DNA of 46,368 bases from Lachnospiraceae bacterium. Lineage in GTDB: Bacteria > Bacillota > Clostridia > Lachnospirales > Lachnospiraceae. Shown here in pieces: positions 5,727-12,441 of this stretch (the stretch's first letter is position 1; each line of letters begins with the position of its first letter). The notes under the pieces are model-generated. The model did not search any database and had not been told where the DNA came from. It saw nothing but the letters and a program-made list of their open reading frames with translations. Both the position numbers and the translations under genes were made by a program. Location of the stretch: NCBI GenBank assembly GCA_021770245.1, contig JAETRI010000019.1, forward strand, positions 1-46,368, in the 5' to 3' direction.

Positions 5727-6161
5727 ATGGCCTCATCCGGGGAGGCGGAGACTTCCGTATTTCTCTCCTCCCCGGACAGAGAACCGGCGGGCCGCGCGTA
5801 ACGGCCCAGGCACCCCGCAGTTTCCCGGACGATAGGGCAGCGGGCTTCCGGCAGGTTTCCCCGGCGTCCGGGAACCGGCGGGATGCCTGATTTGTTACTA
5901 AAATCTCGGATTATTCCGGATTATTCCGGATTATGAACGAAAATTCTTGCATCGCCGAATTTATTGTGATATTATAGCAAAGTGGTTGATAGAATTTATC
6001 GGGTCAAAGGCGGCCGGCTTGCCGGGCGTCCTTGTTTATAGCCTGAATGTCCGCGTAGAAATGATATCTGTTTTCTGGTGGAGGACACCGGAAGGGCGTA
6101 TGGAAAGATTCCCGGCATTTTCTATGGAAGAAACAGTACAAAAAGAAAAGGAGTGTTTCAA
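5727..6161 (+). other. Intergenic region with palindromes and opp leader
   Basis: This 435-base gap has no supported gene. It holds a 10-bp perfect stem (5736-5776, TCCGGGGAGG and its complement) just after the preceding stop. A second palindrome with TTCCCGGAC/GTCCGGGAA arms spans about 5815-5882. A tandem CGGATTATTC decamer (2.7 copies) lies at 5907-5933. The opp promoter follows at 5947-5975, then about 185 bases of untranslated leader before oppB. Confidence 0.6.
5947..5975 (+). promoter_or_regulatory. Probable sigma-A promoter of the opp operon
   Basis: TTGCAT (5947-5952) and TATTAT (5970-5975) are 17 bases apart. Three tandem CGGATTATTC-type units end 13 bases upstream of the -35 box, a position suited to an activator or upstream element. 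Confidence 0.65.
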
Positions 6162-7073
6162 TTGGCAAAATATGTTGTAAAAAGAGTCCTCCTCGCAGTC
6201 GTGACATTGTTCATCATATGCGGTATTACTTTCTTTGCCATGAACGCGATCCCCGGCGGCCCTTTTGACGGGGAGAAGGCGGTCTCGCCCGAAGTGAAGG
6301 CCGCAATGGAAAGAAGGTATAACCTGGATAAGCCTCTTGCTGAGCAGTTCGTGCTCTATATGAGTAATCTGTTCCAAGGGGATTTCGGGATATCCACGAA
6401 GACAGGCCGGGATATCAAGACGATCATCTTTGAATCCTTCAGCGTTTCCGCCAGGCTGGGCGGCATGGCGATCCTGGTGGCGCTTTTCATGGGCCTGATT
6501 TTCGGCAGCATCGCAGCCTTAACCAGGAACCGGCTTCCTGACCGGCTGATCATCTTTTTTTCCACGCTGTTCACGTCTCTGCCCAGCTTTGTGTTTGCCA
6601 CATTGCTGCTTCTGGTATTCTGTGTAGAATTAAAACTGATTCCCGTATGGGATGCCAACCATCAGAGTTATGTGCTTCCGGTTATTGCGTTATCCGCAAG
6701 CCCGATGGCCTACATAACCCGTTTAACCAAGACGAGTATGTTGGACGTGGTGGGCCAGGATTATGTCCGGACCGCCAGGGCCAAGGGTGTAAGCCGCCTG
6801 AAAGTGATTTTCAAGCATACCCTGCGCAATGCCCTGATTCCTGTGGTCACCTATGTGGGGCCGATGACCGCATCCATCTTAACCGGCTCCCTTGTGGTGG
6901 AAAAGATTTTCACCATCGGCGGTCTGGGCGCAAAGTTCGTGGACGGGATTACAAACCGGGATTATCCGATGATTATGGGCACCACAATCTTCCTGGCAAT
7001 TCTTATGGTTACCATGAACCTGGTCACCGATATCGTATACAAAGTGGTTGACCCGCGTATCAAACTGGATTAA
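6162..7073 (+). CDS. oppB: Oligopeptide ABC transporter permease OppB
   Basis: Inner-membrane permease of a peptide importer, 303 residues. It has an N-terminal membrane helix (KRVLLAVVTLFIICGITFFAM) and about five more helices. The cytoplasmic coupling motif is around residues 195-225 (DYVRTARAKGVSRLKVIFKHTLRNALIP), the EAA loop that contacts the ATPases. The start is TTG at 6162, preceded at 8 bases by AAAGGAG (6147-6153). The upstream in-frame ATG at 6078 has no ribosome site and would add a non-membrane extension. It is the first gene of oppBCDFA; oppC follows after 16 bases. Confidence 0.93.
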   Translation: MAKYVVKRVLLAVVTLFIICGITFFAMNAIPGGPFDGEKAVSPEVKAAMERRYNLDKPLAEQFVLYMSNLFQGDFGISTKTGRDIKTIIFESFSVSARLGGMAILVALFMGLIFGSIAALTRNRLPDRLIIFFSTLFTSLPSFVFATLLLLVFCVELKLIPVWDANHQSYVLPVIALSASPMAYITRLTKTSMLDVVGQDYVRTARAKGVSRLKVIFKHTLRNALIPVVTYVGPMTASILTGSLVVEKIFTIGGLGAKFVDGITNRDYPMIMGTTIFLAILMVTMNLVTDIVYKVVDPRIKLD

Positions 7074-7089
7074 GGGAGGAGATGGCAAA

Positions 7090-8172
7090 ATGGATAATCA
7101 GAAAAAAAGTATCGATGAAATGCCAAAGAAATCTCCTTTGAGCATGCAGATAGATTTAAGCAAATTCGAGAAAGCGACGGAGGAAGAAAAGCGCCAGCAG
7201 GATGTGATGAGCGAATCCGTTTCTTTTTTCAAGGACGGCATGCGCAAACTGATGAAAAATCCCCTGGCCGTGGGAAGTATCGTCGTGCTGTGTGTGATCA
7301 TTCTGATGATTTTGATCGTCCCCCATGTGGTTCCCTATTCCTATTCCCAGATCATCACCGTGAACGGGAAGCGGGATAAGAGCGCGTCCAATATGGCGCC
7401 TTTCCAGTATTCGGATATGGAAAAGGCCTATATGGAAGAAGGGGGAGAGGTATTCCCTCATATTATGGGGACGGACGAGATGGGACGCGACTATTTTGTC
7501 CGTGTGATCTATGGCACCAGAGTATCCCTGGGCGTGGGCGTGTTCGCAGCGGTGATCGTGCTGATCATCGGTATCCTGTACGGAAGCGTATCGGGGTATT
7601 TCGGGGGAAAGGTGGATTTGATCATGATGCGTATCGTGGATATCATCTATTCCCTGCCGGATCTGCTTATCGTGGTGCTTCTGTCCGTTGTGCTGCGGGA
7701 GGTGCTGAACGTGGATAAGTTTCCCATGCTTCAGAGGATGGGGACGAACATGATTTCCATGTTCATCGTATTCGGCCTTCTGTACTGGACGGGGATGGCC
7801 AGATTGGTGCGCGGCCAGATCCTTACCATTAAGCAGAACGACTATGTACTGGCGGCGCTGGTGAGCGGCGCGAAATCCGGGAGGATCATCCGCAGGCATA
7901 TTTTACCCAACTGCATCAGCGTTATCATTATTTCCGCAGCCCTGCAGATCCCTTCCGCCATCTTTACGGAAAGCTTCCTGAGCTTCATCGGCCTGGGCGT
8001 ACAGGCTCCCATGCCTTCCCTGGGTTCCCTTGCGAATGCGGCGAGGGCGGGTATCAACGCTTATGCCTATAAACTGGTGTTCCCGGCTGCAATGATCTGT
8101 ATGATCACGCTCGCTTTCAACCTTTTGGGAGACGGGCTCCGCGATGCCTTTGACCCGAAGCTGAGACGGTAG
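7090..8172 (+). CDS. oppC: Oligopeptide ABC transporter permease OppC
   Basis: Second permease of the importer, 360 residues. A cytosolic N-terminal tail of about 60 residues precedes the first helix (NPLAVGSIVVLCVIILMILIVP). A periplasmic-type loop follows, containing GTDEMGRDYFVRVIYGTRVSLGVG, a typical OppC/DppC landmark. The EAA loop is YVLAALVSGAKSGRIIRRHILPN. The ATG at 7090 is chosen because GGGAGGAG (7074-7081) lies 8 bases upstream; an in-frame ATG at 7048 lies inside oppB. Confidence 0.93.
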   Translation: MDNQKKSIDEMPKKSPLSMQIDLSKFEKATEEEKRQQDVMSESVSFFKDGMRKLMKNPLAVGSIVVLCVIILMILIVPHVVPYSYSQIITVNGKRDKSASNMAPFQYSDMEKAYMEEGGEVFPHIMGTDEMGRDYFVRVIYGTRVSLGVGVFAAVIVLIIGILYGSVSGYFGGKVDLIMMRIVDIIYSLPDLLIVVLLSVVLREVLNVDKFPMLQRMGTNMISMFIVFGLLYWTGMARLVRGQILTIKQNDYVLAALVSGAKSGRIIRRHILPNCISVIIISAALQIPSAIFTESFLSFIGLGVQAPMPSLGSLANAARAGINAYAYKLVFPAAMICMITLAFNLLGDGLRDAFDPKLRR

Positions 8173-8235
8173 GGGACGGCGGCAGAGCCGCCTGCGGTTT
8201 GAGTGCCCGTCAAAGCGGGCGGAATGAGAGGAAGA
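8173..8235 (+). promoter_or_regulatory. Two-hairpin leader with ribosome-site cassette before oppD
   Basis: Stems GGCGGC/GCCGCC and GCCCG/CGGGC follow each other. The second runs straight into the cassette GGCGGAATGAGAGGAAG, whose AGAGGAAG is the oppD Shine-Dalgarno. The same cassette wording occurs before oppF and smpB. Confidence 0.6.
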
Positions 8236-9225
8236 ATGAGTGAGACAATACTTTCAGTAAAGAACCTTCATACCTCCTTTACCACGGATAAGGGGGAGGT
8301 AATGGCAGTAAACGGCGTTTCCTTTAATCTTGACAAGGGAAAGATCCTGGGTATCGTGGGAGAGTCCGGTTCCGGGAAATCGGTTACCGCCTATTCCATC
8401 ATGCAGATTTTGGAGAGCAACGGGAGCATCACGGAAGGCCAGGTGCTCTATAAGGGAACCGATATCACCAAATACAGCGAGAAGCAGATGCGGGAGTTTC
8501 GGGGAAAATGCTGTTCCATCATTTTCCAGGATCCCATGACCAGCCTGAATCCGGTCTTTACCGTGGGAAATCAGCTGCGGGAGGCGATCGAGCTGCATAC
8601 GGACAGAAAGGGAAAGGAAGCGGAAGCGCGGGCGGTGGAGATGCTCACCCTGGTGGGCGTGAACGAGCCGGAGAAGCGGGTGAAGCAGTATCCCTATGAA
8701 CTGTCAGGCGGCATGCGTCAGCGTGTGATGATCGCTATGGCGCTGGCCTGCGAACCGGATATCCTGATCGCGGATGAGCCCACCACGGCTCTGGATGTGA
8801 CCATCCAGGCGCAGATTCTGGAGCTGATGCAGAGCCTGCAGAAAAAGCTGGGGATGGCCATTATTATGGTGACCCATGATCTGGGCGTTATCGCGGATAT
8901 GTGTGACGAGATCATCGTCATGTACGGCGGACGCGTATGTGAAAGAGGGACGGCGGAGGATATTTTCTATCGTCCGTGCCATGAATATACGAGAGGACTT
9001 CTGCGTTCCATACCCAACGTGGACCGGATCGGGGAGAAGCTCGTTCCCATTCCGGGAACGCCGATCAATCTGTTGAATATGCCCAAGGGCTGTGCGTTCT
9101 GCCCCCGCTGTGAAAATGCGATGAAGATCTGTATTGATGAGGTTCCGCCGGAAATGCAGATGCCTGACGGGCACTATGCCTCCTGCTGGCTGAACATGAA
9201 GGAGCAGATGCAGAAGAAAGGGTGA
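8236..9225 (+). CDS. oppD: Oligopeptide ABC transporter ATP-binding protein OppD
   Basis: Cytosolic ATPase of the peptide importer, 329 residues. The Walker A is GESGSGKS, the Q-loop is in [12 protein letters not shown], the signature is LSGGMRQRV, the Walker B is [13 protein letters not shown], and the switch histidine is in MVTHDLG. The C-terminal oligopeptide-transporter extension has the cysteine pattern [15 protein letters not shown]...C, which in characterised family members can bind an Fe-S cluster. The start at 8236 (MSETIL) is preferred over in-frame ATGs at 8203 and 8224, because the latter is inside the AATGAGAGG ribosome-site cassette. Confidence 0.93.
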
Positions 9226-9334
9226 AGAAAGGCCGCCATCAAGGTAAAGAGGCTTTTCTGCCCAAAGGCCCATGCCGCCACAGGAAGGTTTCTTGATGCG
9301 AAAGCCGCATGACGGCGGCGGAATGAGAGGAAAG
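9226..9334 (+). promoter_or_regulatory. Hairpin-chain leader before oppF
   Basis: The gap contains GCCGCCATCAAG near its 5' end. Complementary blocks lie near the 3' end (CTTGATG at about 9292, GGCGGC at about 9316), so the whole leader can close on itself. ATGCG/CGCAT forms a smaller inner stem. It ends in GGCGGAATGAGAGGAAAG, the ribosome-site cassette of oppF. Confidence 0.55.
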
Positions 9335-10294
9335 ATGAGCGAATATCTGGTTGAGGTCAACGACCTGAAACAATATTTTCCTATAAAAACAGGTTTTATG
9401 AAATCCATTCCCTTAAAAGCCGTGGACGGGGTATCCTTTGCCATCAAACCGGGCGAAACACTGGGACTGGTGGGGGAGTCCGGCTGCGGGAAGACCACGG
9501 TGGGACGTTCCCTGCTGCGGATTTATACGCCCACCGGCGGGGAGGCTTACTATAACGGGGAGAAGATCGACAAAAGCAGCATACGCCACATGCGCAAAGA
9601 GATGCAGATGGTGTTCCAGGATCCCTATTCTTCCCTGAATCCCCGTATGACCGTGGAAGATATCATCGGGGAGCCTCTGGACGTGCATAAGATGTATTCC
9701 ACCAAGGGAGAAAGACACGACAAGATCATCGGATTGATGGAACTGGTGGGGCTGAATGCGGAGCATGCCACCCGTTATGCCCATGAATTTTCCGGCGGAC
9801 AGCGCCAACGTATCGGGATTGCCAGGGCTCTGGCCACAAATCCTAAGTTTATCGTCTGCGACGAGGCGGTGAGTGCACTGGACGTGTCCATCCAGGCACA
9901 GGTGATCAATATGTTCGAAGAACTGCAGGAAAAATTGGGGGTGGCCTATCTGTTCATTGCCCATGACCTGCTGGTGGTGCACCATATATCGGACCGCATC
10001 GCGGTAATGTACCTGGGGAGGATCGTGGAGATCGCGGATGCCAATGAGCTGAACGAAAATCCGCTTCATCCCTATACCCAGTCCCTTCTGAGTGCCGTAC
10101 CCTATCCGGATCCGAAGATGGCGAAGGAGAGGCAGCGTATCGTCCTGGAGGGAGACGTGCCCAGCCCCCTGCACATGCCCAGCGGCTGTTCCTTCCGTAC
10201 CCGCTGCCGGTATGCAACGGAGCGGTGCGCCCAGGAATGCCCGGCCTTGACGGACCGGGGGAACGGGCACCAGATCGCCTGCTGGAATAAATAG
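9335..10294 (+). CDS. oppF: Oligopeptide ABC transporter ATP-binding protein OppF
   Basis: Second ATPase of the importer, 319 residues. The Walker A is GESGCGKTT, the Q-loop is in [15 protein letters not shown], the signature is FSGGQRQRI, the Walker B is [12 protein letters not shown], and the switch is FIAHDL. It has the C-terminal oligopeptide extension with cysteines ([15 protein letters not shown]...C). The start at 9335 follows AGAGGAAAG. The upstream in-frame ATGs at 9272, 9296 and 9323 lie in leader hairpins, and the last sits within the ribosome-site cassette. It would pair with OppD as a heterodimer. Confidence 0.93.
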
Positions 10295-10471: not shown

Positions 10472-12295
10472 ATGAAGAAAAAGTATCTGGCATTTGTGCT
10501 GGCTGCTTCCATGGTTATGAGCACCCTCGCTGCCTGCGGCGGTTCAGGGTCGAATACCCAGGAACCTGCTGCCAGCGAGGCCGAATCCACCGCTGAAGCG
10601 TCGGACGAACAGGCACCGGAAGAGAGCGCCGAAGAGTCCGAAGCGGAAGAGGGGGGGGAGGTTTCCACAGCTCATGGTCCGTCCAGCGAAGCGGCTCCTG
10701 CATGGGAAGCATATGACGCGAGGATCAAGGAGATCAGGCTTGAAACCGACCTGGCAAAGCGTGAAGCCCTGATGCATGAAGCGGAAGACGAACTGATGTC
10801 CACATGGGCCGTTATCCCGCTTTACTATTACAACGATGTTTATATGCAGGATACCGGTGTGGACGGTATCTACAGCAATCTGTTCGGATTCAAGTATTTT
10901 GGTTTTGCCACTGCTCCGAACAACGTACTGCCTCTTCAGGTCGCTTCTGAACCCGATAAGCTCGATCCGGCTCTGAACTCTACGGTTGACGGCGCCTGCC
11001 TGGCTATCCTGGCATTCTCCGGCCTGTATATGTATGATGAGAACGGACAGCTGGTTCCCGATCTGGCCGAAGGCTATGAGATGAGCGATGACGGCATGAC
11101 CTATACCTTCACCATGAAGGACGGCCTGAAGTGGTCCGACGGCACGCCTCTTACCGCTGCGGATGTGGAATACAGCTGGAAGAGGATGGCCAACCCCGAT
11201 ACGGGTGCCGATTATGCATACCTGGCTGATCTCATTGCAAAAGGCGCTGACGGAGAGCTGGATGTGACGGCCTCCGAAGACGGAAAGACCTTCACCGTGA
11301 ACCTTACCGCTCCTTGTGCATATTTCCTTGACCTGTGTGCATTCCCTGCGTTCTATCCCGTTCCCCAGGCTGCCGTAGAAGGCGCCGACGGCTATGCGGA
11401 GAACCCCGGTGCATGGTGTACGGAAGCCGGTTTCGTATCCTCCGGCCCGATGGTCTGCACCGGCTGGAAGCATGACGAGTCCATGACTTATGAAAAGAAC
11501 CCGAACTACTATAACGCAGACAAGGTTTCCCTCGACAAGATCGAGTTCATGTTAAGCTCCGACGATACCGCGATCTGGAACGCTTTCCAGGACGGTTCCC
11601 TGCTTTTCATTGATTCTATCGCTACGGACAATATGCCCACCGCGAAGGAAATGCCCGAATATCATAAGGTACCCACTCTGGGAACCTACTATGCGGGCTT
11701 CAATGTAAACAGCGAACTGTTCGCAGGCAAGACCGTGCAGCAGGCTGCCGATATGAGAAAGGCTTTCTGCCTTCTGATCGACCGTCAGTACATTGTTGAT
11801 ACCATCGCCCAGGCCGACCAGGAAGTTGCCAACACCTTCATTCCCACCGGAATGGCAGACGGCAACGGCGGCGTATTCAGAGAGAACGACAGCGACTATA
11901 CATATCCTATGGAAGATGTGGTCGGTTACTATGATGCTTCCCAGGATGCATATGAAGCAAACCTGGAAGAGGCCAGGACCCTGCTTGAGAGCGCCGGCTA
12001 TCAGTTCGACGAAAGCGGCATGCTTTCCGCCGATACGCCCATCAACATGACCTACTTAACCAACGATTCTTCCGGTAATGTGAAGATCGGCGAAGCAATC
12101 CAGCAGGATTTCGCTGCCATCGGCATCAACCTGACTGTGGAGACCCGTGAGTGGTCCGTATTCCTGAACGAGAGAAAAGACGGCCAGTTCGACTTTGCCC
12201 GTGAGGGATGGCTCGCAGACTACAACGATCCGATCAACATGCTGGAGATGTGGGAGACCAACTCCGGTAACAACGATATGCAGTTCGGCAGATAA
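10472..12295 (+). CDS. Oligopeptide-binding lipoprotein, apparently circularly permuted
   Basis: Extracellular substrate-binding lipoprotein (SBP family 5, OppA/DppA type) of 607 residues. The lipobox LAAC puts the lipid anchor on C22, followed by an acidic linker to about residue 74. Residues 75-148 (EAYDARIKEI...KREALMHEAED...VIPLYYYNDVYMQ...NLFGFKYF) match what is normally the C-terminal end of OppA. The usual N-terminal start (ASEPDKLDPALNSTVDGA) begins only at about 152, and the protein stops at SGNNDMQFGR, exactly where the missing tail would begin. No tail is encoded after the stop. GGGAGGAA (10459-10466) fixes the start. It is the last gene of the opp cluster and has its own promoter. 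Confidence 0.9.
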   Translation: MKKKYLAFVLAASMVMSTLAACGGSGSNTQEPAASEAESTAEASDEQAPEESAEESEAEEGGEVSTAHGPSSEAAPAWEAYDARIKEIRLETDLAKREALMHEAEDELMSTWAVIPLYYYNDVYMQDTGVDGIYSNLFGFKYFGFATAPNNVLPLQVASEPDKLDPALNSTVDGACLAILAFSGLYMYDENGQLVPDLAEGYEMSDDGMTYTFTMKDGLKWSDGTPLTAADVEYSWKRMANPDTGADYAYLADLIAKGADGELDVTASEDGKTFTVNLTAPCAYFLDLCAFPAFYPVPQAAVEGADGYAENPGAWCTEAGFVSSGPMVCTGWKHDESMTYEKNPNYYNADKVSLDKIEFMLSSDDTAIWNAFQDGSLLFIDSIATDNMPTAKEMPEYHKVPTLGTYYAGFNVNSELFAGKTVQQAADMRKAFCLLIDRQYIVDTIAQADQEVANTFIPTGMADGNGGVFRENDSDYTYPMEDVVGYYDASQDAYEANLEEARTLLESAGYQFDESGMLSADTPINMTYLTNDSSGNVKIGEAIQQDFAAIGINLTVETREWSVFLNERKDGQFDFAREGWLADYNDPINMLEMWETNSGNNDMQFGR

Positions 12296-12316: not shown

Positions 12317-12441
12317 GGTTGAAAAATCAGCCTGGTGGCTGATTTTTCAACCACAATTTGGGCCGCTTGCGGCCCAAATTGAATCGCAGATGAGAAATTG
12401 CACGCGCGATTTCTCATCGCGCAGCCGCGTAGGACGCGGCA
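12317..12441 (+). repeat. Orphan copy of the four-module hairpin chain
   Basis: Modules are in the same order as at 4923. Module 1 is GGTTGAAAAATCAGCC with its perfect complement (12317-12352). Module 2 is a perfect 13-bp CAATTTGGGCCGC stem (12354-12381). Module 3 is GATGAGAAATTGC/GCGATTTCTCATC (12389-12418). Module 4 is GCCGC/GCGGC (about 12424-12440). Compared with 4923, module 1 differs by paired changes that keep the stem intact. Here no Shine-Dalgarno or gene follows; a terminator follows instead. Confidence 0.8.

Follow-up and report, generated by a model that had tools for sequence, protein, structure and literature searches.

A circularly permuted gene for an OppA-like putative lipoprotein beside oppBCDF in a Lachnospiraceae genome, and its permuted relatives with four cut sites

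The window, which is the whole stretch of 46,368 nucleotides analysed here (contig JAETRI010000019.1 of the Lachnospiraceae bacterium assembly GCA_021770245.1), contains an opp operon with two permease genes and two oligo_HPY ATPase genes, and directly 3' of oppBCDF lies an oppA gene whose parts are in a rotated order. The features of the locus are as follows.

6078..7073, + strand: oppB, permease (Pfam PF00528, E 5.2e-44; PF19300)
7048..8172, + strand: oppC, permease (Pfam PF00528, E 3.9e-32; PF12911, OppC_N)
8203..9225, + strand: oppD, ATPase (Pfam PF00005; PF08352, oligo_HPY)
9272..10294, + strand: oppF, ATPase (Pfam PF00005; PF08352, oligo_HPY)
10472..12295, + strand: permuted oppA, 607 aa plus stop, single open frame (Pfam PF00496, E 3.1e-81)
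10472..10537, + strand: putative signal peptide with lipobox LAAC, by pattern only; Cys22 is the presumed lipidated residue
10538..10696, + strand: acidic Ser/Glu/Ala-rich linker, residues 23-75, from the sequence
10697..10915, + strand: displaced C-terminal segment (the tail), residues 76-148, single copy (DppE match, tail HMM)
10901..10927, + strand: join of the old C-terminus and old N-terminus, residues 144-152, between KYF and the first body strand (alignment of relatives)
10916..12292, + strand: body, comprising the canonical N-terminal and middle parts, residues 149-607 (Pfam, phmmer, body HMM)
12197..12232, + strand: AREGWLADYNDP, residues 576-587, aligned to OppA ARAGWCADYNEP with Arg413 and Asp419
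12263..12295, + strand: new C-terminus SGNNDMQFGR plus stop (sequence, alignment of relatives)
12319..12350, + strand: terminator-like hairpin behind oppA, by pattern only

Downstream of the permuted oppA are genes that we take to be secG, rnr and smpB. The only Pfam family in the permuted OppA is PF00496 (SBP_bac_5), which covers residues 194-601 at 273.8 bits against a gathering score of 32.4. Alignment to OppA places the motif GWxADYxxP with the peptide-anchoring Asp at residues 576-587; we assume that this Asp holds the N-terminus of the peptide, as in OppA, and that Arg413 and Asp419 of OppA have a peptide-binding role. Judged by homology the protein is a member of SBP_bac_5 / OppA (cluster C), although it does not have the canonical N-to-C order.

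The rotation is seen directly in phmmer comparisons with proteins of known structure. Chain positions 20-444 of Bacillus subtilis DppE (8ay0_A) match residues 149-601 of the query (i-Evalue 7e-58) and chain positions 451-512 match residues 79-140 (i-Evalue 1.2e-6), such that two consecutive pieces of DppE are matched in swapped order; OppA 8are_A is matched in three pieces, again rotated in this way, with a weak match for the tail piece (i-Evalue 0.0047). The window's own gene (L097) matches the body HMM at positions 3-458 and the tail HMM at positions 1-72, once each and tail first, and in the alignment a 9-residue join links the old C-terminus to the old N-terminus. All parts of OppA are therefore present once in a rotated order by HMMs and tblastn, which is what defines a circular permutant. 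No second copy of the tail, intact or frameshifted downstream of oppA, is present in the window (the next tblastn match has an E of 0.49), and in the genome (G000) the next-best relative scores 32 bits against 1386 bits, there being no other close relative. The first-pass annotation had described the ORF, with correct coordinates, reading frame and motifs, as an OppA permutant with the tail placed ahead of the body, nothing missing or duplicated, and had argued for a move rather than a truncation plus insertion; the swapped DppE pieces, the single HMM matches and the complete, single-copy, tail-first chain bear this out, and the second C-terminal segment that it named as contrary evidence is absent from the window.

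One might consider that OppA was truncated and an unrelated helical segment inserted after the anchor, the likeness to the tail being fortuitous, given that the region is just 73 residues long and matches OppA 8are_A weakly, but the chance of this is minute. The DppE tail match begins exactly where the body match ends, the tail alone matches all 10 canonical loci at 3.5e-21 or better (among the ORFs of the fetched loci, a small search set), and alignments show the tail motifs YYYND and MHxAED in both chain orders. The DppE and canonical-locus matches refute chance likeness.

The rotated order is widely shared. Among 122 pattern matches in genome contigs, 91 encode a relative, and the best 80 of these 91 gave 78 loci, which derive from Eisenbergiella, Blautia, other Lachnospiraceae, other Clostridia and one Christensenellaceae bacterium, and also span several spirochaetes (Treponema, Sphaerochaeta). 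The order is tail-body in 67 of the 78 and body-tail (canonical) in 10, with one too partial to tell; in the genus, matches occur in 11 of 13 genomes and all 11 are permuted. Since the draft genome behind the window is in 237 contigs, and metagenome-assembled genomes supply many of the related loci, one could suspect an error of assembly or annotation, or a gene in decay. We give this explanation virtually no weight: the order is shared by the cultured strains Eisenbergiella tayi DSM 26961, Blautia caecimuris DSM 29492 and Treponema bryantii XBD1002 and by a complete genome (AP025576.1), the gene is a single open frame, and dN/dS is far below 1, which together refute it. Relative to the nearest relative, L019, dN/dS (NG86) is 0.043 for the tail and 0.019 for the body, and is highest, at 0.164, in the signal plus linker; relative to four more distant relatives (L033 was left out of the comparison) it is 0.058-0.135 for the tail and 0.065-0.18 for the body, these ratios being rough because dS there is 1 to 2. 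The moved tail and the body are both under purifying selection.

The first-pass reading proves too narrow, in that the protein belongs to a conserved family and represents one of four cut-site classes. Using HMMs for the tail (T) and the body (B, positions 1-458), type 1 (P1) is T-B; type 2 (P2) is B113-456, T, B1-113, cut near body position 113; type 3 (P3) is B377-456, T, B1-362, cut at 362|377; and type 4 (P4) is B~270-456, T, B1-266, cut at about 266|270-280. A non-redundant set of 199 OppA-like ORFs over the loci fetched by then, omitting ORFs with a body score below 60 bits and L094, which is too partial to class, comprises 87 of P1, 79 canonical, 14 of P4, 13 of P3, four of P2 and two that are tail-less. 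PF00496 is split into two stretches in all five proteins of types 2-4 tested, with the best stretch sitting where the rotated order predicts. The ligand-anchoring Asp pattern [WFY]xxD[YFW]x[DE]P is retained in 37 of 40 permuted rows (P1 14/15, P2 4/4, P3 8/8, P4 11/13) compared with 41 of 46 canonical rows. We note that G1473 carries type 4 five times over, with one tandem pair (L201, 2610-4298 and 4489-6147) and the remaining copies at L200, L202 and L203.

Placed by eye on OppA 1b05, the cuts lie at 441-444 (type 1), 126-133 (type 2), 355-357 (type 3) and 279-286 (type 4). With the domain limits that we assume for OppA (I, 1-44, 169-270 and 487-517; II, 45-168; III, 271-486), types 1, 3 and 4 open domain III and type 2 opens domain II, and the type 4 cut is near the start of domain III, leaving each lobe nearly contiguous. 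A preference for domain III as the new anchor place was considered on these same limits, and three of four sites there is no more than chance, since domain III makes up about 42% of OppA. The cut sites are in length-variable loops, at percentiles 99.8, 97.5, 90.7 and 97.2 over 46 canonical rows in a post hoc comparison, and 56 of 20000 random sets of four alignment windows are equally variable, the windows having been chosen after the cuts were known.

Profiles of the join, which also brought up the OppA proteins with other orders, were run at cut-offs of 1e-48 to 1e-28, with up to 9 candidates per genome scored in the largest searches. The profile A2 matched across the whole join in 10 of the 150 genomes searched in the family and in 1 of 198 sampled around a Treponema genome (the centring genome itself). 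The other searches gave matches across the join in 3 of 196 genomes in the order sample, 5 of 391 in the class sample, 2 of 398 and 9 of 358 in two phylum samples, 21 of 118 in the order of G683 (two ending early, at profile positions 151 and 168), 8 of 118 in the order of G673 and 3 of 38 in the family of G290. The 10 of 150 and the figures for the order, class and both phylum samples include the genome of the window itself; these counts are not frequencies, because the cut-offs vary, the samples overlap, the own genome is included and the candidates are limited. Many of the genomes are drafts, though the 3.1 Mb of G673 form one contig.

The place beside the transporter genes is conserved for types 1 and 2 and for part of type 4. 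Of the 134 OppA-like ORFs that have flanks, 101 are preceded on their own strand by all of oppB, C, D and F and 14 by none of them; four of these 14 are, by reading, at or near contig ends. Types 1 and 2 and the canonical genes nested within type 1 (see below) follow oppBCDF, with the exceptions of type 1 L078 and L241. Type 4 follows oppBCDF in G673, G1510 and G418, and this is partly seen in G970 and G1347, but in G1473, G1442 and G707 no oppBCDF precedes it on its own strand. Type 3 L208 is beside oppBCDF on the opposite strand and type 3 L245 is without oppBCDF.

A more complex history emerges from the trees, from which tail-less ORFs, those with fewer than 300 body positions and near-copies are omitted. 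On a quick tree of 86 re-ordered OppA rows, which leaves out L193, L198 and L204 as long-branched or odd, the labels together need 11 changes; taken singly, P1 needs 4, P2 1, P3 2, P4 4 and canonical 10. A single P3 clade is rejected (p-AU 3.8e-5), as is a single P4 clade (p-AU 5e-54), and a single P1 clade is rejected on a careful OppA tree of 53 rows (p-AU 9e-7). On the latter the canonical proteins of Roseburia, Agathobacter, [Clostridium] polysaccharolyticum and kin are inside P1 (nodes 100/100 and 100/98), and the P1 rows L103, L105 and L106 are among these nested canonicals. One further quick tree has long branches around L149/L150. Since the OppA alignments might mislead, a quick tree was made from OppB, C, D and F (62 rows), and it too shows canonicals nested in P1; the transporter genes reject one P1 clade (p-AU 9.9e-5, quick tree of 49 rows, 13 of the 62 having been dropped as long or distant). 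On the transporter tree canonical L233 is sister to P1 L215/L216, and P1 L214 (45% of columns) falls within canonicals. P2 is one group in the OppA trees and scattered on the transporter tree, where it needs 3 changes, of which starred branches force 1. The second P3 group and the P4 group of G1473/G707 are sisters on the 86-row tree (99, starred), and so may share one first permutation, one perhaps being a re-cut of the other. With canonicals nested in P1 in both OppA and transporter trees, the order has changed several times beside the same transporter, and there have been several separate rearrangements, at four cut sites.

The loop at the type 1 cut site bears on the direction of these changes. 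Canonical proteins outside type 1 have 2-4 residues there in 8 of the 11 listed, and L252 has 15; in L218 and L220, the nearest of them, the loop is 28 residues long, begins QFGKG and ends in TW, and so may be an old feature. In the 12 nested canonicals listed it is 6-8 residues long and consists of QFGK or QLGK, an S/A-rich part and P.W or similar, and this looks like a type 1 C-terminal end run into the end of a type 1 linker. Regain of the canonical order by reversal is the more economical reading. A rather doubtful course is that type 1 was gained several times in Lachnospiraceae at one vulnerable loop and that canonical order was never regained; the long QFGKG loop of L218 and L220 at the very site would be an easy target, and other cut sites have been used more than once, but canonicals lie deep in several type 1 branches, about six gains (counted from the drawn tree) would be needed against 4 changes with reversal, and repeated gain must contend with the resemblance of all 12 nested loops to type 1 ends.

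It is improbable that canonical and type 1 oppA genes were instead swapped between paralogues or by gene transfer, with no re-cutting. In its favour, G054, G1390 and G1404 show one more match each, to the body only and with its order unchecked. Against it, the OppA tree puts the nested canonicals within type 1, a quick tree of the body alone agrees and rejects one P1 clade (p-AU 1.8e-4), and the transporter tree agrees also; a quick tail-only tree has too few columns to place the nested canonicals, so a swap of the tail by itself may have occurred. A bolder reading of re-cutting with reversal has a somewhat less than even probability: the order of OppA would be evolvable and reversible in Clostridia and their kin, with at least 8 re-cuts at four loops (by parsimony with canonical order ancestral) and canonical order regained, because moving the tether to the other lobe, or giving a lobe a contiguous chain as in type 4, alters how the clamp docks on the importer.

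It is highly probable that the protein is a naturally occurring, circularly permuted OppA of family 5 (SBP_bac_5, cluster C) that serves the adjacent oppBCDF importer as its working receptor, and that it is one of at least four cut-site classes derived from several separate rearrangements. A short loop (residues 144-152) links its old termini, and its new ends lie in a loop of variable length that corresponds to about OppA 441-444. The chain would be predicted to fold into the usual two-lobed clamp, with the tail strand in its ordinary place, and would most likely bind peptides and deliver them to OppBC as usual. Physically, it would be expected to differ mainly in its lipid tether, which would leave domain III (lobe II) and not domain I (lobe I). 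A tether may be absent in part of the family: a lipobox-like pattern is lacking in 21 of 87 type 1 proteins compared with 9 of 79 canonical ones, such that the anchor argument cannot hold for all, and it is lacking in 8 of 13 type 3 proteins, one of the eight being cut by a contig end. L030, L033, L055, L258, L260 and others have a signal peptide without a lipobox-like cysteine, and permuted OppAs without a lipobox are perhaps released or held otherwise.

The simplest origin would be that the gene was duplicated, the copies fused in frame and opposite ends then lost, with the signal peptide and linker kept. Permutation by duplication is a general model that predicts complete, unduplicated permuted chains. 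The permuted OppA is complete and unduplicated as predicted, and tandem oppA copies do occur (G1473); no ORF with two tails, and thus no intermediate, is present among the 199 OppA-like ORFs.

Known OppA and DppE proteins (SBP family 5, cluster C; 8ay0, 8are, 1b05) share the Pfam family, the operon place and the ligand-anchoring motif with the permuted OppA, but have the canonical chain order, and among the matches listed (60 of 94) there is no PDB entry whose best stretch spans the permuted join. The closest parallel is TpMglB-2 (Tp0684) of Treponema pallidum, which, from the parts of the report available to us, is a natural circular permutant of a tethered SBP with relatives in treponemes and Gram-positive, often gut, bacteria, and for which its authors offer tethering as a possible reason for the permutation (PMC4990184). 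It resembles the permuted OppA as a natural permuted SBP with relatives also in treponemes and Gram-positives, but is a sugar binder of type I/cluster B, the last 100 residues of which have 13% identity to the first 100 of Escherichia coli MglB, and it forms, as far as those parts describe, one permuted subclass (PMC4990184), compared with several cut sites and apparent reversal in OppA. The type I sugar-binding fold of that group (Type Ic / cluster Bc) would not be expected in the permuted OppA, PF00496 being its sole Pfam family. A literature search that reached a minority of subscription papers and no preprints found no permuted OppA, and PMC2265533 mentions OppA and permutation in unrelated places. 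Permutation in cluster C, the four cut sites, the repeated rearrangement and the apparent reversal are, as far as we have seen, new.

To our knowledge, most circular permutants described from nature are isolated cases of old date. Here one well-studied family has been cut repeatedly, both by re-use of a loop and by use of other ones, and its canonical sisters accompany the same transporter genes; this makes the path, cost and reversibility of circular permutation testable in nature. Annotation by linear profiles hides such changes of order, Pfam reporting SBP_bac_5 for all six permuted proteins tested.

Among the various other ORFs, we note that type 2 L125 (4821-6623; Subdoligranulum variabile OY725879) has a C-terminal extension rich in Ser and Ala, which is reminiscent of a lipoprotein linker and could be a relic of rearrangement. 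L148 (G1380) is a type 1 ORF of 380 aa that lacks body positions 78-315 through an in-frame internal deletion. L283 (1208-4354, - strand, G1520) is a 1048-aa ORF with Pkinase (E 1.3e-38) and canonical SBP_bac_5 (E 2.8e-79) matches; it was considered as a fused tandem OppA and rejected, since Pfam identifies a fusion of a Ser/Thr protein kinase with OppA, perhaps a peptide-sensing receptor kinase.
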